Origin: Paenibacillus sp. FSL H8-0079
Lineage (GTDB): Bacteria; Bacillota; Bacilli; Paenibacillales; Paenibacillaceae
Assembly (NCBI RefSeq): GCF_037991315.1
Contig: NZ_CP150300.1
Location: 1,488,001 to 1,552,000 of the forward strand
Direction: 5' to 3'
DNA: 64,000 nucleotides
The notes below the pieces were generated by a model that searched no databases, was not told the origin of the DNA, and saw nothing but the letters and a program-made list of their open reading frames with translations. The first letter of the stretch is position 1, and the number at the start of each line of letters is the position of its first letter. The position numbers and the translations under genes are program-made. Below, piece by piece: positions 33,935 through 61,035 of the stretch.

Positions 33935-33964
33935 TTGACAGAACACGATAAGCATCGTTATAAT
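33935..33964 (+). promoter_or_regulatory. SigA promoter of the siderophore uptake operon
   Basis: TTGACA (33935-33940), 18-base spacer, TATAAT (33959-33964). Both hexamers are perfect. Confidence 0.85.
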
Positions 33965-33979
33965 TGAGAATTATTATCA
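33965..33979. promoter_or_regulatory. Fur box
   Basis: TGAGAATTATTATCA matches the 7-1-7 Fur consensus TGATAATNATTATCA at all but one position. It directly abuts the -10 hexamer, so Fur-Fe(II) would block initiation. Confidence 0.85.
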
Positions 33980-34016
33980 TTTAAAACGAACGGATGGATT
34001 TCAAAGGGGTTATGCA

Positions 34017-35951
34017 ATGAATATAGACAGGTATATTGAGCTATGGAATCAGGCGGCGGTTCAGGTCGTGGATGTGCAGCATCATATGTTGGGATACGGG
34101 CAGGACCCTATGATACATGAATTGCCGACCAGTGGACTAATCTACACGGTTCGTGGCGGTGGCTTGATTTACGTGGATTACAACCAGTACAGAACAGATC
34201 GCTATCATCTGATTCATGGCGGAAAGGGGAGCCTTCTGCAGATTGATGTTCTTGAAGAACAATTGGAGTATTATCTGATTTTGTATCAAGCACACATCTT
34301 GTTATCTGCTGGAACAGCTGCTCGACTACTACCGGATGGGAGCCCGTTGTTAGAGAGTCACTATGACCTGAAGCCCACTCACCCAGTGTTGTTACAGGAT
34401 AAAATAAGTCAACTTAGACAGATGTGGACATCTCCACACCGTTTGCAGGAAATGCAGGTACGTTCCATCTTTTTGCAGATCATGATGGAGATTCTGGAAC
34501 AACTGCAGTCCGCAGAAGTCTCGTCTGAACCTCCTGATCTGGTGGCACAGGCGATGAGCTACATTCAGGAACACTATCACCTTCCAATCACCATCGATTC
34601 GCTGGCTGCCAAGCTGGAATGCAGCCCAAGACATCTGGGACGCTTGTTCCGCAATAGCGAGATTGGTCAGAGCCCATCGGATTATCTTGTGCAATTCCGG
34701 ATGAGCAAAGCAAGTGAATTGCTTGTGCAGACCGATCTTGCGCTGAAGGATGTGGCGAGTAGCATCGGTTACGAGGATGTATATCATTTTAGCCGTATGT
34801 TCAAAAAGTACTGTGGTTTATCTCCGATTCACTATCGTAATCAGTATCTTCAATCGCCAACAGGTCTGAATACGACATCAGCTATGTCCGATATATCCAT
34901 TGTTGAGTCGCTAATACCCCGTTATATTGATAATGGTTCTCAAAACAAACAAGTAAGCGGGGGTTCTTTCATGATGTACAATTGGTCCAGACGTTCAACG
35001 GTGATGATGCTGTTGCTGAGTTTTAGTCTTTTAATGAGTGCGTGCGCGAGTCCATCTCCATCTACCAATGCTCCGGCAGTATCAAGTGGAAGTGAACAGG
35101 CAACCGCAGATACTACTTCTTCCCGCACGATCAATCATGATCTGGGAAGCACGAAGGTACCGGTTGAGCCCACACGGATCGTGGTGTTGGAGCAAGGATT
35201 TACACAGACCATTGCAGCGCTTGAAGTGAAGCCTGTTGGGGTTGCTGATGATAACAAACCTGAGCGTTTCCCCAAGGACACGCTTGCTTATATTGAGGGA
35301 TATACCTCGGTGGGTACCCGTTCTGAGCCGAATCTGGAAGTGATTCGTACGCTCAAACCAGATCTGATTATTGCGGATACGAGCCGTCATGGCAATGTAT
35401 ATGATGAATTGTCGGCCATTGCACCAACGATTGTATTCAAGAATGATACAGCCAACTACGAGGATATCTTGGTGTCGACTGAGAAGATCGGTGAAGCGTT
35501 GGGCAAAACAGAGGCTACCACCGCCTTGCTGGAAGAGCATCAGAAGCGATTGGATGAGTTGAAGCAAACCATCAATCCTCAGCAGTCGGTTCTGATCGTG
35601 GCTGCGGATGAAGATGAGACGCAATCGTTTCAGGTTCGGACAGATCAGGCCTTTCATTCTTCTTTCTTGTCTGCGGCAGGTCTGAATTATGCCCTGAAGG
35701 ATGAGAAAGAAGTTAATCAATTGATGACGACAGAGCAGCTGCTTACCATCAATTCGGATCAGATGCTGATTCTGATTAATGAAGATGGGCCCTCCGTGCT
35801 CGAAGGTCAGAAGGATAATCTGCTCTGGAATCAGTTGAAGGCAGTACAGAATGGTAATGCTCATGAAGTGGAATTGGCAACGTGGTCAAGACAACGTAGT
35901 ATACCTGCATTGAACAATATTATGGATGAAGCGGCTGCATATTTTAGATGA
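34017..35951 (+). CDS. AraC regulator fused to siderophore-binding lipoprotein domain
   Basis: The 644-residue open frame joins three parts. Residues 1-170 are a sensor-like region and about 175-280 an AraC double helix-turn-helix (CSPRHLGRLFRNSEIGQSPSD; GYEDVYHFSRMFKKYCGLSP). Residues 320-343 form a signal-peptide-like segment ending LLMSAC (cysteine 343), and about 365-644 a FecB/FeuA-type iron-siderophore binding domain. The first ATG has AAAGGGG seven bases upstream. An internal ATG at 34971 lies seven bases after GCGGGGG and could start the binding protein alone. No stop codon or frameshift divides the frame. The stop overlaps the first permease gene (ATGA). A Fur box and promoter precede it. 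It probably senses and imports a ferric siderophore. Confidence 0.88.
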   Translation: MNIDRYIELWNQAAVQVVDVQHHMLGYGQDPMIHELPTSGLIYTVRGGGLIYVDYNQYRTDRYHLIHGGKGSLLQIDVLEEQLEYYLILYQAHILLSAGTAARLLPDGSPLLESHYDLKPTHPVLLQDKISQLRQMWTSPHRLQEMQVRSIFLQIMMEILEQLQSAEVSSEPPDLVAQAMSYIQEHYHLPITIDSLAAKLECSPRHLGRLFRNSEIGQSPSDYLVQFRMSKASELLVQTDLALKDVASSIGYEDVYHFSRMFKKYCGLSPIHYRNQYLQSPTGLNTTSAMSDISIVESLIPRYIDNGSQNKQVSGGSFMMYNWSRRSTVMMLLLSFSLLMSACASPSPSTNAPAVSSGSEQATADTTSSRTINHDLGSTKVPVEPTRIVVLEQGFTQTIAALEVKPVGVADDNKPERFPKDTLAYIEGYTSVGTRSEPNLEVIRTLKPDLIIADTSRHGNVYDELSAIAPTIVFKNDTANYEDILVSTEKIGEALGKTEATTALLEEHQKRLDELKQTINPQQSVLIVAADEDETQSFQVRTDQAFHSSFLSAAGLNYALKDEKEVNQLMTTEQLLTINSDQMLILINEDGPSVLEGQKDNLLWNQLKAVQNGNAHEVELATWSRQRSIPALNNIMDEAAAYFR

Positions 35952-36943
35952 ATAGAACGCTGACTGCGGCCTTGGTTGGCATAATCGGATTGATTGTGCT
36001 TTTTCTGGGCTCGCTGATGATCGGTACTTCCTGGATACCCTTATCCACTGTGCTGGATTATATGTTCGACTATTCTCCAACGGTCAAAGAACATGTCATT
36101 CTGCATGTATTGCGAATGCCACGTGCCTTGGCTGTGCTGTGCATTGGCGCCAACCTGAGTATTGCTGGTTGCATTATGCAGGTGCTGACCCGTAATCCGC
36201 TTGCATCTCCGAGTATATTCGGGATCAATGCAGGCGCCTCCTTTATGATCGTCCTGTGCACGATTGTTTTCCCAACGGTTAGTGGCCTGGCGCTGGCAGG
36301 TGCAGGCTTTGCAGGGGGATTACTGACGGTGAGCATTGTCCTGTTGATGAGCTTTGCCATGCGCGGAGGCCAAGCCGAAGTACGGATGGCACTGATCGGT
36401 GTGGTGGTACAGGCATTGTTATCTTCATTTACGCAAGGACTGTTGATCTTCAATGAGGAGTCCGCCGGTAAAATCATCTTCTGGCTCGCCGGTTCGGCTG
36501 CTGGCGTCAAATGGGAAGAGATTAACCTTTTGCTGATATTCAGTTTAACGGGTCTTTTCATGGCTTTGTTGATTAGTAAATCATTATCCTTATTGAATCT
36601 CGGCGAAGACATCGCCCGCGGATTGGGACAGAAGATCTGGACTGTTCGGATAGTGGGCAGTGTAATTGTGATCATTCTGGCAGGCATATCCGTGTCAGTT
36701 GTGGGGCCAATCGGTTTCGTGGGATTAATCGTGCCACATATAACCCGATATCTGTTGGGTACAGACTATCGGTTGCTGATCCCTTTCTCCGCCTTATTCG
36801 GAGCGATCCTGTTAACCATAGCAGATATTGCTTCCCGCTTTGTTCATTTTCCATCAGAGACACCTGTAGGCATTATTACGGCCCTGGTTGGAGCACCTTA
36901 TTTCGTATATCTCGCAAGGCGACAGAGCAGGAGTGCATCATGA
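35948..36943 (+). CDS. FecCD-type iron-siderophore ABC permease 1
   Basis: The 331-residue protein has nine to ten membrane helices and the FecCD signatures RMPRALAVLCIGANLSIAGCIMQ, NPLASPSIFGINAGA and VGPIGFVGLIVPHITRYLLG. It overlaps both neighbours by four bases (ATGA), showing tight translational coupling. It forms the membrane channel with the next gene. No ATPase gene is in the operon, so a shared ATPase (FhuC/YusV-like) elsewhere is likely. Confidence 0.95.
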   Translation: MNRTLTAALVGIIGLIVLFLGSLMIGTSWIPLSTVLDYMFDYSPTVKEHVILHVLRMPRALAVLCIGANLSIAGCIMQVLTRNPLASPSIFGINAGASFMIVLCTIVFPTVSGLALAGAGFAGGLLTVSIVLLMSFAMRGGQAEVRMALIGVVVQALLSSFTQGLLIFNEESAGKIIFWLAGSAAGVKWEEINLLLIFSLTGLFMALLISKSLSLLNLGEDIARGLGQKIWTVRIVGSVIVIILAGISVSVVGPIGFVGLIVPHITRYLLGTDYRLLIPFSALFGAILLTIADIASRFVHFPSETPVGIITALVGAPYFVYLARRQSRSAS

Positions 36944-37965
36944 AGAGCATACTAAGGAATAGGAATCTTATGGTGCTTGTGGCGCTTGTTATTCTATTGG
37001 GTCTTCTCATGATGGCGAATATTCAGGCAGGAGCGGTAGGGATTAGCTGGCGGGAGATTTGGGCTTCCTTTACAGGTGAGGGAGATCCGGATCTTACTTA
37101 TATCATACTGAATTATCGTCTTCCTCGTATTGTACTGGCCATGCTTGTTGGCTGTGGTCTGGCTGTTTCGGGTCTGGTCTCCCAGAGCATTCTTCGCAAC
37201 CCGTTAGCCGCACCAGATACGCTGGGAATTTCGGCGGGGGCTGCCTTGGGAGCCGTATCTACGGTATTGTTATTACCTGTTGAGATGCAGAGTGCATGGC
37301 TCACTTCACTGGCTGCATTTGTTGGTGGAGGAGCAGGGGCGCTGCTTGTATATGTATTCTCTTACCGAAATGGGGTAGATCCGGTACGACTGGCTCTGGT
37401 TGGTGTAGCGGTTAGCGCTTGTGGGAGCACCTTGGTGCAACTACTGATTACACGATCATCGGCGAACACCAACACCGTCTTGCTCTGGCTCAACGGTTCA
37501 TTATGGGGACGTAACTGGGATCAAGTATTGCAATTAGTACCCATTATTGTTCTGGTTATTCCTGTGGTCTGGATGCTGGGCAAAGTTATGGATCTCTTCG
37601 GCCTGGGCGAACAGTCTGTCAAAGGTTTGGGTCTGCGTGTGGAGAGGATGCGTGCTGTACTGCTTCTGTTGGCCGTTCTTCTCGCAAGCGGTTCGGTTGC
37701 TGTGGTTGGTATGATTGGATTCGTTGGTCTGGTCAGTCCGCATATCGCTCGCCGTCTGGTCTCGGGAGGACATCGGTATTATGTACCTGTAGCCGGGCTC
37801 GTAGGGGCAATCATGATGTTACTGGGGGATTATATTGGACGTGTGTTGGCCCCACCACTGGAATTCCCCGTCGGATTGGTAACATCGATCATCGGTGCAC
37901 CTTACTTTCTATTTTTACTGTGGCGCCAATATCGGACTAAAAGCAGACCGGATAAGAACATCTAA
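36940..37965 (+). CDS. FecCD-type iron-siderophore ABC permease 2
   Basis: The 341-residue partner permease has RLPRIVLAMLVGCGLAVSGLVSQ, NPLAAPDTLGISAGAALG and VGMIGFVGLVSPHIARRLVSG. It overlaps the previous gene by ATGA and ends the three-gene operon, with a terminator 41 bp further on. Domain content is complete. Confidence 0.95.
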   Translation: MKSILRNRNLMVLVALVILLGLLMMANIQAGAVGISWREIWASFTGEGDPDLTYIILNYRLPRIVLAMLVGCGLAVSGLVSQSILRNPLAAPDTLGISAGAALGAVSTVLLLPVEMQSAWLTSLAAFVGGGAGALLVYVFSYRNGVDPVRLALVGVAVSACGSTLVQLLITRSSANTNTVLLWLNGSLWGRNWDQVLQLVPIIVLVIPVVWMLGKVMDLFGLGEQSVKGLGLRVERMRAVLLLLAVLLASGSVAVVGMIGFVGLVSPHIARRLVSGGHRYYVPVAGLVGAIMMLLGDYIGRVLAPPLEFPVGLVTSIIGAPYFLFLLWRQYRTKSRPDKNI

Positions 37966-46779: not shown

Positions 46780-49700
46780 ATGCAAAGTAAGCAAATAAAG
46801 AGTTGGCTCAGATTATTCTTAGCTGTGGTCCTGCTGATTACGGGTGCCATACCTGCTGGCTTATTCAACAACAAAGTTGCAGCGGCGGATGAGCCGCTAA
46901 CAGTTGCAGAGGCGCTCGCTCTTGGTTCGGATGATTCAACCGCCACGGTTGAAGGTTATGTTGTCGGGACCTACAGCAACGGTCCAAGTGTAAATCTGAA
47001 TCCACCCTTTACTGTAGACACTAATTTTGCAATTGCTGATAGTCCAACCGAAACAAATCTTAGTAAGATGATGCCTGTTCAAGTACCCACAACTGCTCCT
47101 CGCAGCACGTTCGGACTACAAAGCAATTCCTCCTTATATCAATCCAAAGTACGTATTAACAACGGTACGTTATCTCAATATTTCACTTCTAAAGGTATAC
47201 GATCCGTTACATCAACAACTTTTCAACTGATTGATGAGACACCGGAAACGGAAGTGGCTAATGTCACAGCTAATCCGTCCCCAGGGGCCGTTCCGTCAGG
47301 AACACAGGTTACTTTGGGAACAACTACAGTCGGTGCAGCCGTATACTACAAGTTAAATGATGAAAATGCGTTTCTTCCTTACACAGTTCCCATCACGGTT
47401 AATGATGCTATGCACATCGAAGCTTATGCACACAAAGAAGGCTTGCTGGATAGTGCAATTGCTTTATTTAATTATACGATCGTTGACAATACTCCAATTT
47501 CAATATCTGATGCCAGAAACAAGCCTGAAAACTCTCCGGTTACCGTTCAAGGGATTGTAACCTACCGAGAGGAATCCGGAGGAATGGCGAATCTATATAT
47601 TCAGGATGAGAATGCTGGAATCGTCATTCGTGGTACAGATTCAACTGTTGAGCCAGGTGACCGGATTGAAGCGTATGGTCCGCTCACCATTTATAACGGT
47701 CTACTCCAGGTAGAGAAGGATAAAGCAGGATTTCCAGGCGGTTATATTAAGATCTTGGATAAAACACAAGAAATTCCTGAACCGCTTACGTTGACATCCA
47801 AAGACTTTGCGTCTGCTGAAGACGGAGGCAAGGGTTCGGGCGGCATCTATGAAGGGATGCTTGTCGAAGTCAATGGGGTCACGGTGACAAGAAGTAGCAG
47901 TTCCACCTTTTTTGCGACAGATGTGGATGGTCGAGAGATCACGATCTATGCCAAAAATAGCCCCACTGCACTGGCAACAGGCAAAACATATGAAAAAGTG
48001 ACAGGCGTCCTGACTTATCACACAAGCTATGGTCTCGAATTAATCCCACGCACAGCAGCGGATGTTGTCGAGAATCTGCTTTCTGTTACAGCTAGTGTTC
48101 CTTCAGGGGGGATTGTAAAAGGATCTACGGTGACTTTATCCTCACCAATGGCGGGAGCAGAAATTTATTATACGGTTAATGGCACTAACCCTACACCAAC
48201 ATCTACGCGGTACACTGTGCCGATTACAGTAGATGAGGATACTGCTATTAAAGCTATTGCAGTGTCTGGTGGAGATACAAGTAATGTATATACCTATACT
48301 TACAAGGTTCTTCAGGAACTGAACAATCTTAGAATCCACGATATTCAAGGGGCCACCCATAACTCCTTATACGATGGTTTGGCTGTGCAAAATGTGGAAG
48401 GTATTGTGACTCATGTTGTAAATGCAACTTCCTTCTACATGCAGGAGATTCCTGGCATGGAAGATAACGATGACAGAACATCTGAAGGTATTCTGGTCTA
48501 TAAGTCTTCTCATGGAATGACAGTAGGTAACAAGGTGAGCGTATCTGGACAGGTGAAAGAATATGCAACAGCAACAACGGAGCTGGCGATAACGGAAATT
48601 GTAGCTACAATAATTACGGTTGAAGACAGTAATAAAGATCTGCCTGAACCTGTGGTTTTGGGTGCTAATGGTCGCATGATTCCTACCGTAATTGATTCCG
48701 ATCAATTCGGCGAGTTTAATCCGGATAAGGATGCCATTGACTTTTATGAGAGTCTAGAAGGGATGAGGGTACAACTCGATAATGCTACCATTATCGGTCC
48801 GTATTCCAGTGAACCGGGTCTCGCTGTTGTTGTAGATAATGGTCCGAACAATCCGTTGCGCACTCCTGCGGGCGGTGTCATTCTGACAGGGGATGGTGCA
48901 GAGCCGTTTGAGAGTTCACTTAATCCGCAACGGCTGTTCATCAATAAGAAACCATCCCAAGCTGTCAAAACGGGAGACAAGCTAGGTGGCTCCGTTAAAG
49001 GGGTTATGACATACTCCAATGGGAACTTTAAAGTGATTCCTGAAGGTAATCTTCCAGCAATCACACCGAGTCCCCTTGAACAAGCAATAACAAAAATTCA
49101 ACCCACCGATGACAAATTGACGATTGCAACTTTCAATGTAGAGAATTTCAGTCAAAAGGATGCGGCTAGAGCTGTTAAAATTGGCGGCATTGTCGTCAAT
49201 AATCTGAAAAATCCAGATATTATCGGCATTATGGAAGTGCAAGATAATGATGGAGCAACAGACAGTGGAGCAACAGCTGCAGATGCTAGTTTCCAAACCC
49301 TAATTGATGCCATTGCAACTAAAGGTGGTCCTGCGTATAAATACACAGATATCGCTCCGGAAAATAACAAGGATGGCGGAGCACCAGGTGCCAATATTCG
49401 TGTAGGGTTTCTGTATAATGAATCACGTGTGTCCCTGAAGGAAGGGATTAAAGGAAGTGCTACAACAACAATTCAGGTAGGCGCTGACGGGAGCTTATCC
49501 AATAATCCGGGGCGTATTGCACCAGGGGACGAGGCGTTCGCCAGCTCTCGCAAACCGCTGGCCGCTGAATTCGAATTCAATGGTGAACGTGTAGTGGTGA
49601 TTGCCAACCACTTCAATTCCAAAGGTGGAGACCTGAAACCATTTGGAAGTATACAGCCTGCGACTCGAAGCAGTGAAGTTCAACGTGCGAAGCAAGCTTC

Positions 49701-52350
49701 ATTGGTGAATGGGTTTGTGAAAGAGTTACTGAATAAAGACCCTGAGGTCAATGTCGCTGTTCTCGGTGATTTTAATGACTTCCAATTCTCAAATACCTTG
49801 AACATTGTTGAAGGTAATGAACTGGATAATCTGGTAAATGAACTGCCAGAAAATCAGCGGTATTCCTACATCTATGATGGAAACTCTCAGACACTGGATC
49901 ACATTTTGGTGAGTAAAAACCTGACTGAGACGGCAGCCATTGAAGTGGTACATGTGAATGCCGATTTTGAGACAGCAGATGGACGAGTGAGCGACCATGA
50001 TCCACTGCTTGCACAATTAAGTATTGGAGATCCAGTGGAAGAAGGGGACTTCAACCTGCGCGTACTGCACACGAATGATACGCATGCACATCTGGATAAC
50101 ATCCCGCGCCGAGTAACGGCAATTAAGGAAGCACGCAATGATAATACCCTGGTGCTGGATGCAGGGGACGTATTCTCTGGTACGTTGTACTTCAATCTGT
50201 TTAATGGTCTGGCTGATCTGGAGTTCATGAACATGATCGGATATGATGCGATGACCTTTGGTAACCATGAGTTTGATAAAGGTCCAAGCGTACTGAAAGC
50301 ATTTATTGAAAAAGCGGAGTTCCCGTTCGTGAGTGCCAACATTGATTATTCAAAGGATGCGAGCTTGAGTGGCTTTTACAACAATAGTATAGGTGATCCG
50401 GGTGAGAAAGCTGAGATCTATCCGGCGATTATTACGGAAGTGAATGGTGAGCTAGTAGGTATTTTCGGACTGACGACACCGGACACGGTATCTCTTTCTT
50501 CACCGGGAGATGACTTGAAGTTTGTAGATTATAAGGCAAGTGCACAAGCAACTGTAGAGATGCTACAAAATGAAGGTATCAATAAAATCATTGCTTTGAC
50601 TCACCTTGGCTACTCAGAGGATCTCAAATTGGCTGAAGCCGTAGAAGGGATCGATATTGTGGTAGGTGGTCATTCACACACCATTCTGAAGGAACCGATT
50701 GTTGTGGGTAGCCTGGATGAGCCAACATTGGTTGTGCAAACCGGGGAATATGACGTTTCTCTTGGTCAATTGGATGTTACGTTTGATGAAGCGGGTATAT
50801 TGAAGAAGTGGAACGGCAAATTGCTGAGTTTGGATGCGAAAGATGCTGCCAACCAATTCATCTATGCTGATGATGTGGAAGCCGCAAACAAGCTGAAAGA
50901 ATATGCTCCTCAGTTGGAACAGTTCAAGAAAACGATTATCGGTAAAACGAATGTCTTCCTGGATGGAGAACGTGGCACTGTGCGGAAACAGGAAACCAAT
51001 TTAGGAAACTTGATGACAGACGGTATGCTGGAGAAAGTGAAATCCATTGTGCAGGAAAACGACGTCAAAGGATACGTGGCGATCCAGAACGGCGGTGGCA
51101 TTCGTGCTTCATTCCAGACAGGTGATATTACGCTGGGCAATCTCCTGACTGTGATGCCATTCGCTAATAATCTATCTGCGTTGAAAATGACAGGCAAGGA
51201 AATCACAGCCGCGCTGGAAAATGGCGTTAGTGGTGTGGAAACGGGAGAAGGGCGCTTCCCGCAAGTGGCAGGCATGCGTTTCTACTACGATTCCACGAAA
51301 CCAGGCGAAAAAATTGATGCCACGACCAATACCGTGACCCAAGTGGGTCAACGTGTGGTCAAAGTTCAGATTAAGAATGCAGATGGTACGTACTCGGATA
51401 TCGATCCGAACGGATACTATATCGTCGCTACCAATTCATTCATGGCTAACGGTGGAGACTTCTATCGTGCTATGAGAACGGCAAAAGATGATAATCGATT
51501 CTACGAATTGAATCTGGTCGATTATGAAATCTTCCATGAACATTTGGACCGTGTAGGTACAGTCGATCAAAAGACGGAAGGACGTAGTACGGATCTGAAG
51601 GGAGCGCCACTTCCTGGGGATGGAAATGGAAGTAACCCTGGTAATGGTGGCGGCAATGGAAGTAATCCGGGCAGTGGTAACAGTGGTGGAGGTTCTACAA
51701 CACCTACTACGCCTGTAACTCCAACAACACCCACTACACCAACCAATCCTACGAACCCAACTACGCCAACCGTTCCTGGTAATGGAGGTACTAATCCAAC
51801 CACTCCGGTCGTAGACCTGAAAGATATCGGGAATCACTGGGCAGCTGCTGCCATTGAGCAGGCCATTTCCCGGGGAATTGTGAACGGGTATCAGGATGGT
51901 AATTTCCGTCCGAATGCACCAGCCACACGCGCCGAATTCATTGTGATGTTGGGAAGAGCATTTGAACTTCCAGCCAGCAACAAGGCATTGACATTTAAGG
52001 ATGCTGCTGGGATACCTGCATGGGCGCAATCCTTTATTGCTCAGGCAGTGGATCAAGGCATCATTAGTGGATATACGGATGATACGTTCCGTTCATCGGG
52101 CAAAGTATCGCGGGTAGAGATGACAGTTATGCTTGTCAGAGCTCTCGGCCTCCCGGTACAGTCGAATCCCGCACTGAGTTTCGCGGACGCCGATAAAGTA
52201 CCGGCGTGGGCTGTTCCATATATCGCTGCTGCATATGATGCAGGACTGGTGAAGGGAACAGGGAAAAATATGTTTAATCCACTCGCCGAAGCAACCCGTG
52301 CTGAAGTGGTGACCCTGCTATTGTCGGCAAGCGAGTTGCAAAAGCAATAA
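46780..52350 (+). CDS. SLH-anchored nuclease / 5'-nucleotidase multidomain protein
   Basis: The 1,856-residue secreted protein begins with a signal peptide (about 1-36). A DUF6359-like domain (38-150) follows, then two chitobiase-C-like beta modules (about 160-240 and 430-505) alternating with OB-fold modules. Next come an endonuclease/exonuclease/phosphatase domain (about 775-1085; TFNVENF, IMEVQDN, GDFNDFQ, SDHDPL), a metallophosphatase (about 1090-1330; HTNDTHAH, DAGDVFSG, FGNHEFD) and a 5'-nucleotidase C domain (about 1385-1560; NGGGIR). A Gly/Asn and Thr-Pro linker (1607-1677) and three SLH domains close it. The layout resembles B. subtilis YhcR but with SLH attachment. It should degrade extracellular nucleic acid and nucleotides to nucleosides and phosphate, matching the neighbouring ugp importer. 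Confidence 0.93.
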   Translation: MQSKQIKSWLRLFLAVVLLITGAIPAGLFNNKVAAADEPLTVAEALALGSDDSTATVEGYVVGTYSNGPSVNLNPPFTVDTNFAIADSPTETNLSKMMPVQVPTTAPRSTFGLQSNSSLYQSKVRINNGTLSQYFTSKGIRSVTSTTFQLIDETPETEVANVTANPSPGAVPSGTQVTLGTTTVGAAVYYKLNDENAFLPYTVPITVNDAMHIEAYAHKEGLLDSAIALFNYTIVDNTPISISDARNKPENSPVTVQGIVTYREESGGMANLYIQDENAGIVIRGTDSTVEPGDRIEAYGPLTIYNGLLQVEKDKAGFPGGYIKILDKTQEIPEPLTLTSKDFASAEDGGKGSGGIYEGMLVEVNGVTVTRSSSSTFFATDVDGREITIYAKNSPTALATGKTYEKVTGVLTYHTSYGLELIPRTAADVVENLLSVTASVPSGGIVKGSTVTLSSPMAGAEIYYTVNGTNPTPTSTRYTVPITVDEDTAIKAIAVSGGDTSNVYTYTYKVLQELNNLRIHDIQGATHNSLYDGLAVQNVEGIVTHVVNATSFYMQEIPGMEDNDDRTSEGILVYKSSHGMTVGNKVSVSGQVKEYATATTELAITEIVATIITVEDSNKDLPEPVVLGANGRMIPTVIDSDQFGEFNPDKDAIDFYESLEGMRVQLDNATIIGPYSSEPGLAVVVDNGPNNPLRTPAGGVILTGDGAEPFESSLNPQRLFINKKPSQAVKTGDKLGGSVKGVMTYSNGNFKVIPEGNLPAITPSPLEQAITKIQPTDDKLTIATFNVENFSQKDAARAVKIGGIVVNNLKNPDIIGIMEVQDNDGATDSGATAADASFQTLIDAIATKGGPAYKYTDIAPENNKDGGAPGANIRVGFLYNESRVSLKEGIKGSATTTIQVGADGSLSNNPGRIAPGDEAFASSRKPLAAEFEFNGERVVVIANHFNSKGGDLKPFGSIQPATRSSEVQRAKQASLVNGFVKELLNKDPEVNVAVLGDFNDFQFSNTLNIVEGNELDNLVNELPENQRYSYIYDGNSQTLDHILVSKNLTETAAIEVVHVNADFETADGRVSDHDPLLAQLSIGDPVEEGDFNLRVLHTNDTHAHLDNIPRRVTAIKEARNDNTLVLDAGDVFSGTLYFNLFNGLADLEFMNMIGYDAMTFGNHEFDKGPSVLKAFIEKAEFPFVSANIDYSKDASLSGFYNNSIGDPGEKAEIYPAIITEVNGELVGIFGLTTPDTVSLSSPGDDLKFVDYKASAQATVEMLQNEGINKIIALTHLGYSEDLKLAEAVEGIDIVVGGHSHTILKEPIVVGSLDEPTLVVQTGEYDVSLGQLDVTFDEAGILKKWNGKLLSLDAKDAANQFIYADDVEAANKLKEYAPQLEQFKKTIIGKTNVFLDGERGTVRKQETNLGNLMTDGMLEKVKSIVQENDVKGYVAIQNGGGIRASFQTGDITLGNLLTVMPFANNLSALKMTGKEITAALENGVSGVETGEGRFPQVAGMRFYYDSTKPGEKIDATTNTVTQVGQRVVKVQIKNADGTYSDIDPNGYYIVATNSFMANGGDFYRAMRTAKDDNRFYELNLVDYEIFHEHLDRVGTVDQKTEGRSTDLKGAPLPGDGNGSNPGNGGGNGSNPGSGNSGGGSTTPTTPVTPTTPTTPTNPTNPTTPTVPGNGGTNPTTPVVDLKDIGNHWAAAAIEQAISRGIVNGYQDGNFRPNAPATRAEFIVMLGRAFELPASNKALTFKDAAGIPAWAQSFIAQAVDQGIISGYTDDTFRSSGKVSRVEMTVMLVRALGLPVQSNPALSFADADKVPAWAVPYIAAAYDAGLVKGTGKNMFNPLAEATRAEVVTLLLSASELQKQ

Positions 52351-57936: not shown

Positions 57937-59562
57937 CTAATGTCCGATCAGACCTGCCTGAGGAAAGACCACAGACTGCTGAGCAATCTGCTCCAGTTCG
58001 TTCAGAATCTGCAACCGGCCCGCCGGGGTCCAGCATAACAGCTGCCAATTCGAGATATCGTGAACGTCACCATGCAACACGGCAGGGCAGCGATTCCAGG
58101 ATGCCGTTTGCTTCATACGGCGGAATACCTTTTCACTGGCAGGCTGAAGCGAAGCCCGATGGATCAATAGATAATCCGTGTCCAACACGGGGATATTATC
58201 CGCAACATACTCATTTCTGGAACTTTCGGGAGATACAAGCTGGGCAGGATGGAGTCCCAATTCAGCATACAACAAGTGTTTTAATGGATGCTCGCCAGTC
58301 CCCTGTAATCGAATGAATTGATTCGTAATCTCCATCAGAGCGATACGTTTTTGTCCGAAATAAGGTTGTAGGCTTAGGCCTGCTTCAAGCTTGCGGAACG
58401 CAAGTTCCTTGAAATTCAGCAACGCTTGCTTCTCGCGTCCGACCAGTTCGGCTATGCGAATATGGTTCTCTTTCCAGTCCTCAGTGGATTCTAAGATGAT
58501 GGTTGGTGCAATACTTTTCAGGCGATCATAATAAGGCTTGTGGTAAAAGTCACCGATGATCAAGTCTGGCTTCGCCTGCCGAAGTTGATCTAATTGTCTG
58601 GTTAATCGGCGTTCTTGTTCATAATCATCGGATTCTCGGTCAAGAACTCCTTCCAGTACAGCTACAGGGCGCAGTCCAAGCGAGGCCAGATTCTCGTGGA
58701 ATCCCATGATGGATGCTGTAGCTACGCGAAGTTGATCTCTTTTCATATATACGCTGGGAGCAATGCCCAAGGTTTGTTTGAATTTGCGGCTAAAATAATA
58801 CTCGTTGCCATACCCGACAGATACCGCGACGTCTTTGAGGACACATGGTTCCTCTGTCAGCTGTTTTTTGGCTTCGTCTATACGTAAACGGTTCAGATAA
58901 TCGGTCGGCGACATGCCCTTGGCTTTCTTGAAACTGCGAGAATAGGAGCTGGGTGTGAGTCCAGCAATCTTGGCAAGCTGATCCATGCTGATTCCTTCAC
59001 TCATGTAACGTCGCATATACATAATACTGCGCTCCAAGGCAGGGTCCACTTTCTCATGATTGGCTTCCAGCCGGTTCTCTGAGAGAAACTGCAGCAGTTC
59101 ATGCAGCTGGCTATGTATGCTGATAAAGTGATCCGGTTGAAGACCGCGATAGGTTTCATACAATTGTTCCAAGCGTAATACAGCCTGCTGCTCATGACGA
59201 ACCAGCAACCTGCCTGTCTGCCAATCCAGCGGGAAGGCAGGTGAAGAGGTCATTTTCCATTCGCCGCGCACTTGCTGCAAACGAACCGTATCCATGCTTA
59301 GCAATATAAATTCGGTCACTTTCGAGCGTGCAGCGGCCTCGATGGTTGTACCTGACTTCAACACGAACAAGCTGCCCGCTTGCGCCGTATAGACTGTATC
59401 ATTCAGGACCAGAACACCGTCTCCTTGCAAAATAAGACAGAGCATGGGCCGGGACACCGTCTTGCCTTGCACACGGAAATTCTCCCCACGACGCACACGG
59501 CACATGGAGGAGAGGAGCGGTAGAGATGAGGTTTCAGCAATGAAGGGAAACTGTTCAGTCAT
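57937..59562 (-). CDS. Btr-like AraC regulator with siderophore-binding domain
   Basis: The 541-residue protein has an N-terminal cupin (about 10-110), AraC double helix-turn-helix (about 175-275; ISMDQLAKIAGLTPSSYSRSFKKAKGMSP; VGYGNEYYFSRKFKQTLG) and a C-terminal periplasmic-binding-like domain (about 285-541; KPDLIIGDFYHKPYYDRLKSIAPTI). It has no signal peptide or membrane segment, so it is a cytoplasmic sensor like B. subtilis Btr (YbbB), which binds bacillibactin and activates its uptake genes. The ATG at 59562 follows AAAAGGATGG. A Fur box lies 31 bp upstream. No transporter is adjacent. Confidence 0.9.
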   Translation of the reverse strand: MTEQFPFIAETSSLPLLSSMCRVRRGENFRVQGKTVSRPMLCLILQGDGVLVLNDTVYTAQAGSLFVLKSGTTIEAAARSKVTEFILLSMDTVRLQQVRGEWKMTSSPAFPLDWQTGRLLVRHEQQAVLRLEQLYETYRGLQPDHFISIHSQLHELLQFLSENRLEANHEKVDPALERSIMYMRRYMSEGISMDQLAKIAGLTPSSYSRSFKKAKGMSPTDYLNRLRIDEAKKQLTEEPCVLKDVAVSVGYGNEYYFSRKFKQTLGIAPSVYMKRDQLRVATASIMGFHENLASLGLRPVAVLEGVLDRESDDYEQERRLTRQLDQLRQAKPDLIIGDFYHKPYYDRLKSIAPTIILESTEDWKENHIRIAELVGREKQALLNFKELAFRKLEAGLSLQPYFGQKRIALMEITNQFIRLQGTGEHPLKHLLYAELGLHPAQLVSPESSRNEYVADNIPVLDTDYLLIHRASLQPASEKVFRRMKQTASWNRCPAVLHGDVHDISNWQLLCWTPAGRLQILNELEQIAQQSVVFPQAGLIGH

Positions 59563-59590
59563 ACGGACCATCCTTTTGTCTTATTTTCTT

Positions 59591-59748: not shown

Positions 59749-61035
59749 TTAGTACGGTGTCACCAATAGAATATTGTCGAGGAAAACGTCACTCATTACT
59801 TTTTTCCCTGTTCCACCCGTTTGCACATGATACAAGCGATACTGATCTTTGGCATTGATGTAGAACAAGCCGGCAACATCATCTCTGATATGGAATGCAT
59901 CCCATTCGTCACTGGTAAGTTTCGTTACCTTGAGAGCTGTATTGACCGAATAGAGACCGTTGTTGCCCGAGATGTATGCAGCTGTAGCTGTACCATTGGT
60001 CAATTGATTTGCAACATACGTTACATTGTTCAGGTTCAGATTGGCGGACTTGGTCACTTTGTTGCCGGAGACCGTTTTGGCATAAGCCTTTTTGTCTGCA
60101 TCAATAAGGACAACCTTGTCTGTACCTAAGGCACTTACTTCCCGGACGCTCTTGTTATGAAGCTGAAGCGTTTTGGCTGAAGTCGTTAACGCAAACGCTT
60201 TGCCTTTGGCGTAATTGTAATCCTTATTAATGTCGAGATCGATTCCTTTGTTATACACGTAAAGATTATTTCCCCAACCACCGGAATATACAGCATTCAC
60301 ATCCAGTTTGGCTTTGGGATTAACAGCAGTTGCCTTGCCAGTGTTGTAGTTCACTTTATACATGACAACAGCATTGGTGGAATAGAAGTCCTCGTAGGGG
60401 TCTGTATTTACCATCAGTTGCAGTTCGTTTTTGGCTTGATTCGTAAAATAACGTCCTTCCACTGCGCCTGCGGCAATCCGCTGCACAGCTCCAGAACCGT
60501 TGGACGTTTTGGACACGGACCACGTGTTTCCATTAACCAGCGCATTATAGTAAGCACGCCCTTTGGCTACTAGGAGAAATGGAAAATCAGTGTCTGCTTT
60601 GTCAGCAATCTTGGTGACAGCTGAAGCGTCACTGTTGCCATTAGCGCGATAAATTGTACCTGTAGCATCCAGATAATAGATGAATCCGTTATCCGTGTAA
60701 TAGCTCAGTACATCTGTAGCAAATGTCTCTGCCGCATCGCTGGACCCGTCATTCGGAACCCGGAGCAATGTTGTGGAAGAAGCAGTCTGCGTGTAGTAGA
60801 GATAAGAGCCTGCTGCGTGCAAGTCCACCCCTTGGAAATCAATTAATACTTCTGTCGTATTGCTGCCATCAGCCGATACTTTGTACAGGATGCCATCGGA
60901 CTCATAATACACTGTGGATTGGCTGAGTGAAGCTGCCTGGGCTGCGGTTCCGCCTCCCAATGTCATTGCTGCAATGAGTGTAAATAACAGTAATGTACAG
61001 ATGGTGCGTTGTAAGTATGTATACCCTGTTTTCAT
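59749..61035 (-). CDS. Secreted DUF5050-like repeat protein
   Basis: The 428-residue protein has a signal peptide ending near AAQA (about residue 34) and then repeated short units of the kind YYESDGILYKVSADGS, LYYTQTASSTTLLRV and IYYLDATGTIYRANG. These suggest a beta-propeller of the DUF5050 type. No catalytic motif is visible; such proteins are secreted or cell-wall associated. AAGGGGACG precedes the ATG. Confidence 0.8.
   Translation of the reverse strand: MKTGYTYLQRTICTLLLFTLIAAMTLGGGTAAQAASLSQSTVYYESDGILYKVSADGSNTTEVLIDFQGVDLHAAGSYLYYTQTASSTTLLRVPNDGSSDAAETFATDVLSYYTDNGFIYYLDATGTIYRANGNSDASAVTKIADKADTDFPFLLVAKGRAYYNALVNGNTWSVSKTSNGSGAVQRIAAGAVEGRYFTNQAKNELQLMVNTDPYEDFYSTNAVVMYKVNYNTGKATAVNPKAKLDVNAVYSGGWGNNLYVYNKGIDLDINKDYNYAKGKAFALTTSAKTLQLHNKSVREVSALGTDKVVLIDADKKAYAKTVSGNKVTKSANLNLNNVTYVANQLTNGTATAAYISGNNGLYSVNTALKVTKLTSDEWDAFHIRDDVAGLFYINAKDQYRLYHVQTGGTGKKVMSDVFLDNILLVTPY

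Follow-up and report, generated by a model that had tools for sequence, protein, structure and literature searches.

Btr (YbbB) of Bacillus subtilis is a cytoplasmic AraC-SBP one-component activator of feuABC. ToxR/CadC-type membrane-tethered regulators are built from a cytoplasmic DNA-binding part, one membrane segment and an outer sensor domain. At araI1-I2, the sites of AraC itself, direct half-sites lie about two helical turns apart (period about 21), and the inner half-site abuts the -35. Shorter isoforms are also known from genes that have an internal in-frame start or promoter.

We analyzed a 64,000-nucleotide stretch of the genome of Paenibacillus sp. FSL H8-0079 (contig NZ_CP150300.1, positions 1,488,001 to 1,552,000; hereafter the window), which contains an AraC-lipoprotein fusion gene. 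The source genome is complete and consists of one contig. As in Btr, an AraC HTH is followed by a Peripla_BP_2 domain in one protein, in a setting of iron-siderophore uptake. Unlike Btr, the fusion has a membrane segment and a lipobox between these domains, its binding domain resembles a transport protein, and its putative target promoter lies within the gene. Against NF049932 (Btr), which has a cut-off of 900 bits, the fusion scores 102 bits and the Btr-type gene of the window 127. The predicted order of a cytoplasmic DNA-binding part, one segment and an outer sensor is that of the ToxR/CadC regulators, but the fusion has an AraC double HTH and no winged helix, the sensor part is a lipobox-bearing ABC binding protein, and a second product appears to be nested in it.

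Like araI1-I2, the fusion has two direct half-sites with the inner one at the -35, whereas the period in the fusions is 22 and the candidate operator is found inside the coding sequence of the fused regulator. PF01497, a lipobox, a Fur-box promoter and, at this locus, adjoining FecCD permeases are shared with FecB/FeuA-type lipoproteins, but the upstream region is here translated as the linker of a larger protein. As with internal-start genes, two products are predicted from one frame; in contrast to them, paralogues and several families share the conserved control region, and the operator co-varies with the regulator that its own frame encodes. The parts are of known kinds, namely Btr-type AraC-SBP regulators, membrane-tethered regulators, Fur promoters and internal starts. 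Our searches of the open-licence literature yielded no account of their combination, neither of a fusion of this kind nor of a promoter nested in one.

The fusion gene and its family

The fusion gene, its domains and its neighbours are as follows, with the basis of each assignment in brackets.

33935..33964, + strand: putative upstream promoter P1, TTGACA, 18 bp, TATAAT (12/12 consensus match)
33965..33979, + strand: Fur box at P1, TGAGAATTATTATCA (13/14 positions of the 7-1-7 consensus)
34003..34009, + strand: ribosome site AAAGGGG of the full-length frame (sequence)
34017..35951, + strand: AraC-lipoprotein fusion gene, 644 aa (translation, Pfam, homologues)
34017..34844, + strand: AraC part, N-terminal domain and HTH, to residue 276 (HTH_18 at 196-276)
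34992..35045, + strand: membrane segment and lipobox with Cys343 (sequence)
35178..35858, + strand: siderophore-binding domain, residues 388-614 (Peripla_BP_2, E 1e-26)
35948..36943, + strand: FecCD permease 1 (Pfam FecCD, E 3.7e-96)
36940..37965, + strand: FecCD permease 2 (Pfam FecCD, E 1.1e-90)

The frame is stop-free over its 644 residues. Its HTH_18 match has an E value of 2.9e-21 (76 bits) and its Peripla_BP_2 match reaches 94.2 bits against a cut-off of 27.5; the protein scores 225 bits against NF008501, under the cut-off of 320. A previous, sequence-only reading of this DNA had described a 644-residue frame with an AraC domain, a lipobox at Cys343 and a binding domain, which translation and Pfam confirm. 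The membrane segment and lipobox that it reported are likewise present: the lipobox reads LLMSAC, with the Cys343 codon (TGC) at 35043-35045, and the segment before it is strongly hydrophobic, with arginines ahead of it. The internal ATG to which it pointed at 34971, behind GCGGGGG, can be found as the first of two adjacent ATG codons (34971/34974) and is usable. Its coordinate for the end of the window's Btr-type gene (59562) needs correction, as that gene, which has no membrane segment, occupies 57937-59571 and encodes 544 aa.

P1 is notable solely as a perfect match, because the -35/-10 scan that gave it yielded 10 sites where 8.5 were expected. A Fur box scoring at least 12 occurs within 200 bases upstream in 56 of 83 relatives. 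Downstream, the start of FecCD permease 1 (35948) overlaps the stop codon of the fusion gene. A permease next door is unsupported as a rule for the fusions, since one lies directly downstream in just 30 of 111 lipobox frames, within the flanking DNA that was covered.

Two further genes of the window were recorded. A 428-residue frame beside the Btr-type gene (59749-61035, - strand) has no Pfam match at E<=0.001, and a 1856-residue protein (46780-52350, + strand) combines nuclease/phosphatase-like, metallophosphoesterase, 5'-nucleotidase C-terminal and S-layer homology domains.

The homologues show the 644-codon frame to be genuine and representative of its group. Among the matches listed, the same fusion extends over 98-100% of the query in 28 proteins with 50-97% identity, the closest of which (97%) is from Paenibacillus amylolyticus, and its conservation across homologues and genomes rules out a sequencing error or chance fusion. 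In the source genome we read 12 lipobox-bearing AraC-SBP fusions (L001-L012) as well as cytoplasmic AraC-SBP forms without a lipobox, such as L013-L015. Family matches at E<=1e-90 were obtained in 38 of 118 genomes of the taxonomic family and 11 of 19 genera, in a search that scored ten candidates per genome. At E<=1e-80, 23 of 200 genomes of the class had matches, and members outside the taxonomic family include Lysinibacillus. On these searches, the fusion is not a singular oddity and its family is large.

The sequence-only reading had looked to other Paenibacillus genomes for the same fusion with a conserved junction, and homologues and genome searches provided both. It had named homologues that are always two separate genes as a refutation; fused homologues were found, and a more distant two-gene arrangement occurs at locus L024. 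Its other refutation was a stop codon or frameshift between residues 280 and 320. The one interrupted copy seen near this orthologue, in genome G002 (L019/L038; 97% identical), has a TAA in the binding domain, after about query residue 524, and its AraC part and junction are intact. A genus-wide search for the orthologue (E<=1e-100) gave matches in 7 of 75 genomes; two of these matches represent a 33% paralogue only, and the orthologue is present in five, one of them broken. Its presence in the genus is patchy, and a same-species genome (G040) is without it at this threshold.

Two loci illustrate how copies are arranged. Two fusion paralogues stand in tandem at G000:C1:4255585-4259688 (L003/L004), and the pair is kept in further genomes (L045, L046). 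In Lysinibacillus (L147-L151), four AraC/SBP genes occur in a row on one strand. Two of them are fusions, one is a lone lipoprotein with a Fur-like box, and one is a partial frame of the cytoplasmic type; one L148 fusion has a perfect 21-base Fur box within its frame. In the AraC tree, the cytoplasmic L013 and L014 are placed outside the forms with a lipobox, and the degenerate L157/L162 are nested among those forms (support 0.81-0.89); L107 and L109 are sisters (support 0.999). Fused, lone and cytoplasmic forms are mixed in the binding-domain tree. Because the two trees disagree, we claim no direction for the origin of the fused form.

A probable control region encoded in the linker

Both domains were found in 119 frames, a set in which some frames are cut off at the end of a locus and some genes occur more than once. 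A lipobox is carried by 111 of these, and omission of linkers more than 0.8 similar left 84 non-redundant linkers. The broken G002 copy (L019) is counted in the 111 and lies outside the 84 and the orthologue pairs. From these comparisons, we consider it very probable that the linker encodes an internal control region for the lipoprotein. The predicted elements in the gene studied here are the following.

34864..34878, + strand: operator half-site R1, GTCTGAATACGACAT (period-22 direct repeat in 64 anchored linkers)
34886..34900, + strand: operator half-site R2, GTCCGATATATCCAT, which abuts the -35 (period-22 repeat; co-varies with the gene's own HTH)
34900..34928, + strand: internal promoter P2, TTGTTG, 17 bp, TATATT (17 spacing best in 59/81 linkers)
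34928..34942, + strand: internal Fur box TGATAATGGTTCTCA, encoding IDNGSQ (12/14)
34957..34964, + strand: internal ribosome site GCGGGGGT (sequence; statistical support for the site weak)
34971..35951, + strand: free-lipoprotein frame nested in the fusion, from the internal ATG to the stop (Cys343 lies 24 codons after this start)

The 7-1-7 consensus has been used to score Fur boxes, for example 13/15 at catDE (PMC6212828). On this consensus, 77 of the 84 linkers score at least 12/14 (28 are perfect), compared with maxima of 10 in AraC coding sequence of the same length and 11 in shuffled linkers. The seven lower-scoring linkers comprise four at 11 and three with no box (L107, L109, L112); in the source genome, all 12 fusions score at least 12. 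The 21-mer Fur match is 17.57/21 over the 84 linkers and 15.38 when amino acids are held and codons redrawn, with 15.69 as the highest of 200 redrawn sets, and 82 of the 84 linkers exceed their own null mean. The conserved peptide 'YIDNDNHYQY' is the translation of the Fur box, and the Asp, Asn, His and Tyr codons end in T in 92-98% of cases in the Fur motif vs 63-75% in the gene body.

The Fur box is preceded by a TATATT-like -10 and a TTG-starting -35, mostly 17 bp apart, and in the 81 linkers of the promoter test the match was 8.41/12 against a null of 7.63 (highest null set 7.84). All 84 linkers have a start codon 20-25 codons ahead of the cysteine (72 ATG, 7 GTG and 5 TTG), with purine-rich DNA upstream. 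The ribosome-site score has a mean of 4.69 vs a null of 4.02, with just 51 of the 84 linkers exceeding their own null.

Synonymous divergence was compared in 32 orthologue pairs, which share genes, each gene being used at most twice. Its value is 0.138 for the linker upstream of the internal start, flanked by 0.448 for the AraC part and 0.444 for the binding domain. In eight-codon bins, the synonymous difference falls from about 0.35 to a trough of 0.035-0.18 between codons -40 and +7 relative to the internal start, with values of 0.24-0.45 outside it. This extent is that of the predicted promoter with its upstream operator and leader. Intergenic versions of the promoter or Fur box can be seen before lone binding-protein genes in the source genome (L015 at +2019, L024 at 1442).

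The putative operator repeat and the gene's own HTH

Operator tests used the 64 of the 84 linkers that fit a TT-17-TA anchor. These contain two copies of GTCaaGATatTCCAT with a period of 22, the second entering the -35. The repeat match is 6.80/12 within a gene vs 5.88 between genes, a difference reached in 0 of 500 permutations. As in AraC-type operators, two direct half-sites are found next to or over the -35, with a within-gene co-variation of z 5.8. Other periods from 14 to 39 are mostly near or below expectation, with 25 and 27 raised (z 3.0 and 4.7). Since 22 is not a multiple of 3, repeated amino acids cannot explain the repeat. The gene studied here is among the weaker examples in both its repeat (8/15 identical by eye) and its Fur box (12/14).

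The distance test was performed with the 62 of the 64 anchored linkers that come from frames of more than 600 codons, and allowed for the N-terminal domain, the binding domain and the spacer. Operator distance follows HTH distance with a partial r of 0.449, or 0.442 once 12 residues are trimmed off the HTH (P 0.001). The corresponding values are 0.03 for the N-terminal domain (0.00 after the trim) and a weak 0.06 for the binding domain (0.089 after the trim, P 0.023), and spacer DNA of the same region gives 0.05 against the HTH. Half-site R1 overlaps the end of the AraC model in one of the 64 linkers, by 2 bases. Such co-variation is as expected if a gene's own AraC domain reads its own operator.

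A matrix built from the 64 sites was applied to 12 loci from outside the family (Lysinibacillus and other families) that had no part in building it, and in all 12 the top-scoring site falls at the junction, with scores of 17.6-38.1 vs a shuffled maximum of 11.2. At L148 and L149, one of the two fused copies each scores <=10. The matrix element also occurs in intergenic DNA, at L015 (16.6) and L025 (13.3), and at L015 it faces a binding-protein gene that stands alone and diverges from a gene for a cytoplasmic AraC-SBP form. Because of these intergenic occurrences, the fusion-internal region looks like an ordinary transport-gene promoter taken into the frame. P1 was considered as a second AraC target and rejected, as the matrix found nothing above 13 in the whole window except its own training site.

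Two products predicted from one frame

By sequence statistics, the operator, promoter, Fur box and start are conserved at the DNA level, the frame is kept open and the operator co-varies with the HTH. We consider it fairly probable that this is a dual-product gene, which would give a full-length, anchored AraC sensor and, from an internal promoter gated by Fur and activated by this sensor, the lipoprotein in free form. That the full-length form is a functional sensor is, taken by itself, probable.

Under this proposal, low iron would open both P1 and P2. The P1 transcript would carry the whole frame and yield an AraC regulator held by one membrane segment, with its siderophore-binding domain outside the membrane; the domain order and hydrophobicity fit a DNA-binding part inside, one segment and a sensor outside, as far as sequence prediction goes. 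P2, just past the AraC HTH and with its own ribosome site and start, would give the lipoprotein alone and, at this locus, would also drive the two downstream permeases. The AraC domain may bind the 22-bp-spaced repeat over the P2 -35, inside its own coding sequence, and with ferric siderophore on the outer domain it would activate P2. P2 has a poor -35, like promoters that depend on an activator. With ample iron, Fur would shut both P1 and P2. We infer that P2 fires with the gene's own AraC domain as its activator, and that the full-length protein is inserted, stays uncleaved and senses from outside; P2 expression, operator and Fur binding, topology and ligand are predictions of the same kind.

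The sequence-only reading had offered three fates for the frame, namely an uncleaved sensor, a single product cleaved by signal peptidase II, and an internal start. On the second of these, the two products could instead come from one precursor, cut before Cys343 by signal peptidase II into a membrane-held AraC half and a lipoprotein. The lipobox that would direct this cut is kept in the 111 of 119 two-domain frames, and cleavage could operate alongside P2; a cleaved precursor as the explanation in itself we regard as unlikely. An internal promoter, ribosome site and start would already account for the lipobox, and two frames that have lost the cysteine (L157, L162) retain the fused frame together with the promoter-like region. 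For Lgt and LspA, moreover, a signal sequence after 320 cytoplasmic residues would be unusual, which counts against such a precursor. Two transcripts, rather than one cleaved product, would best explain the retained lipobox, because the lipoprotein appears to have its own regulated promoter in the frame.

It is similarly unlikely that only the halves matter, an AraC regulator and the P2 lipoprotein, with the joined frame as a by-product of gene squeezing. The linker does resemble an intergenic space in carrying a complete control region, and a near-by two-gene arrangement in the same order exists in the source genome (L024). However, in-frame stops are found in none of the 84 linkers, vs stops in 69 and 84 linkers in the other two frames, even though the linkers have 15 different lengths; this count is limited on its own, because the 84 were picked as open frames. 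When the AraC part alone was used to search 20 genomes, the best 41 of 41 matches (E<=2e-59) all lay in open, fused frames of 625-688 codons, the next seven in frames of 586-595 codons, and the first lone AraC genes appeared at 4e-45, a result that is valid for the clade and not for all AraC proteins because the search model was built from fused members. The fused frame also survives the loss of the internal Fur box (L107, L109, L112) or of the lipobox (L157, L162), and the latter two speak for a use of the joined protein itself, because they keep the frame without the cysteine.

That the full-length form is uninserted and cytoplasmic like B. subtilis Btr, sensing imported siderophore while only the P2 product is exported, is quite improbable. 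The strongly hydrophobic segment before Cys343, with arginines in front, argues against it, and a targeting system should insert such a segment wherever it is located. In favour of this explanation, the source genome also has cytoplasmic AraC-SBP relatives that lack a membrane segment (L013-L015 and window 57937-59571), and L157 and L162 indicate that the fusion is viable without the cysteine. We dismiss as scarcely credible a linker conserved as a peptide with the Fur-like DNA as its reflection, for although Tyr303 and Gly316 are invariant in 16 aligned proteins, the codon-redrawn nulls, T-ending codons, synonymous trough and 22-bp period are DNA-level signals, and codon-level tests ruled out a conserved peptide motif in the linker.

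Our preferred reading, a gene with a full-length sensor and a separately transcribed lipoprotein, may extend to a class of dual-coded genes in Bacilli, a generalization that we regard as evenly poised. In such genes, the operator, promoter, Fur box and ribosome site would double as the linker of a membrane-tethered AraC-siderophore sensor, and from inside its coding sequence this sensor would switch on production of its sensor domain in free form. One gene read at two lengths would then supply both the receptor and the transporter subunit, and duplicates would carry matched operators.

If this is true, a large family of Bacilli genes has a second, regulated product that genome annotation conceals, and these genes provide a natural test of how a membrane-held activator reaches a promoter within its own gene. 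The matched set of HTH and operator sequences would be useful for learning AraC recognition rules. In the paralogues, regulator, operator and sensor travel together as a single movable unit, and since there are 12 lipobox-bearing copies in the source genome alone, new siderophore-specific circuits could arise by simple duplication.
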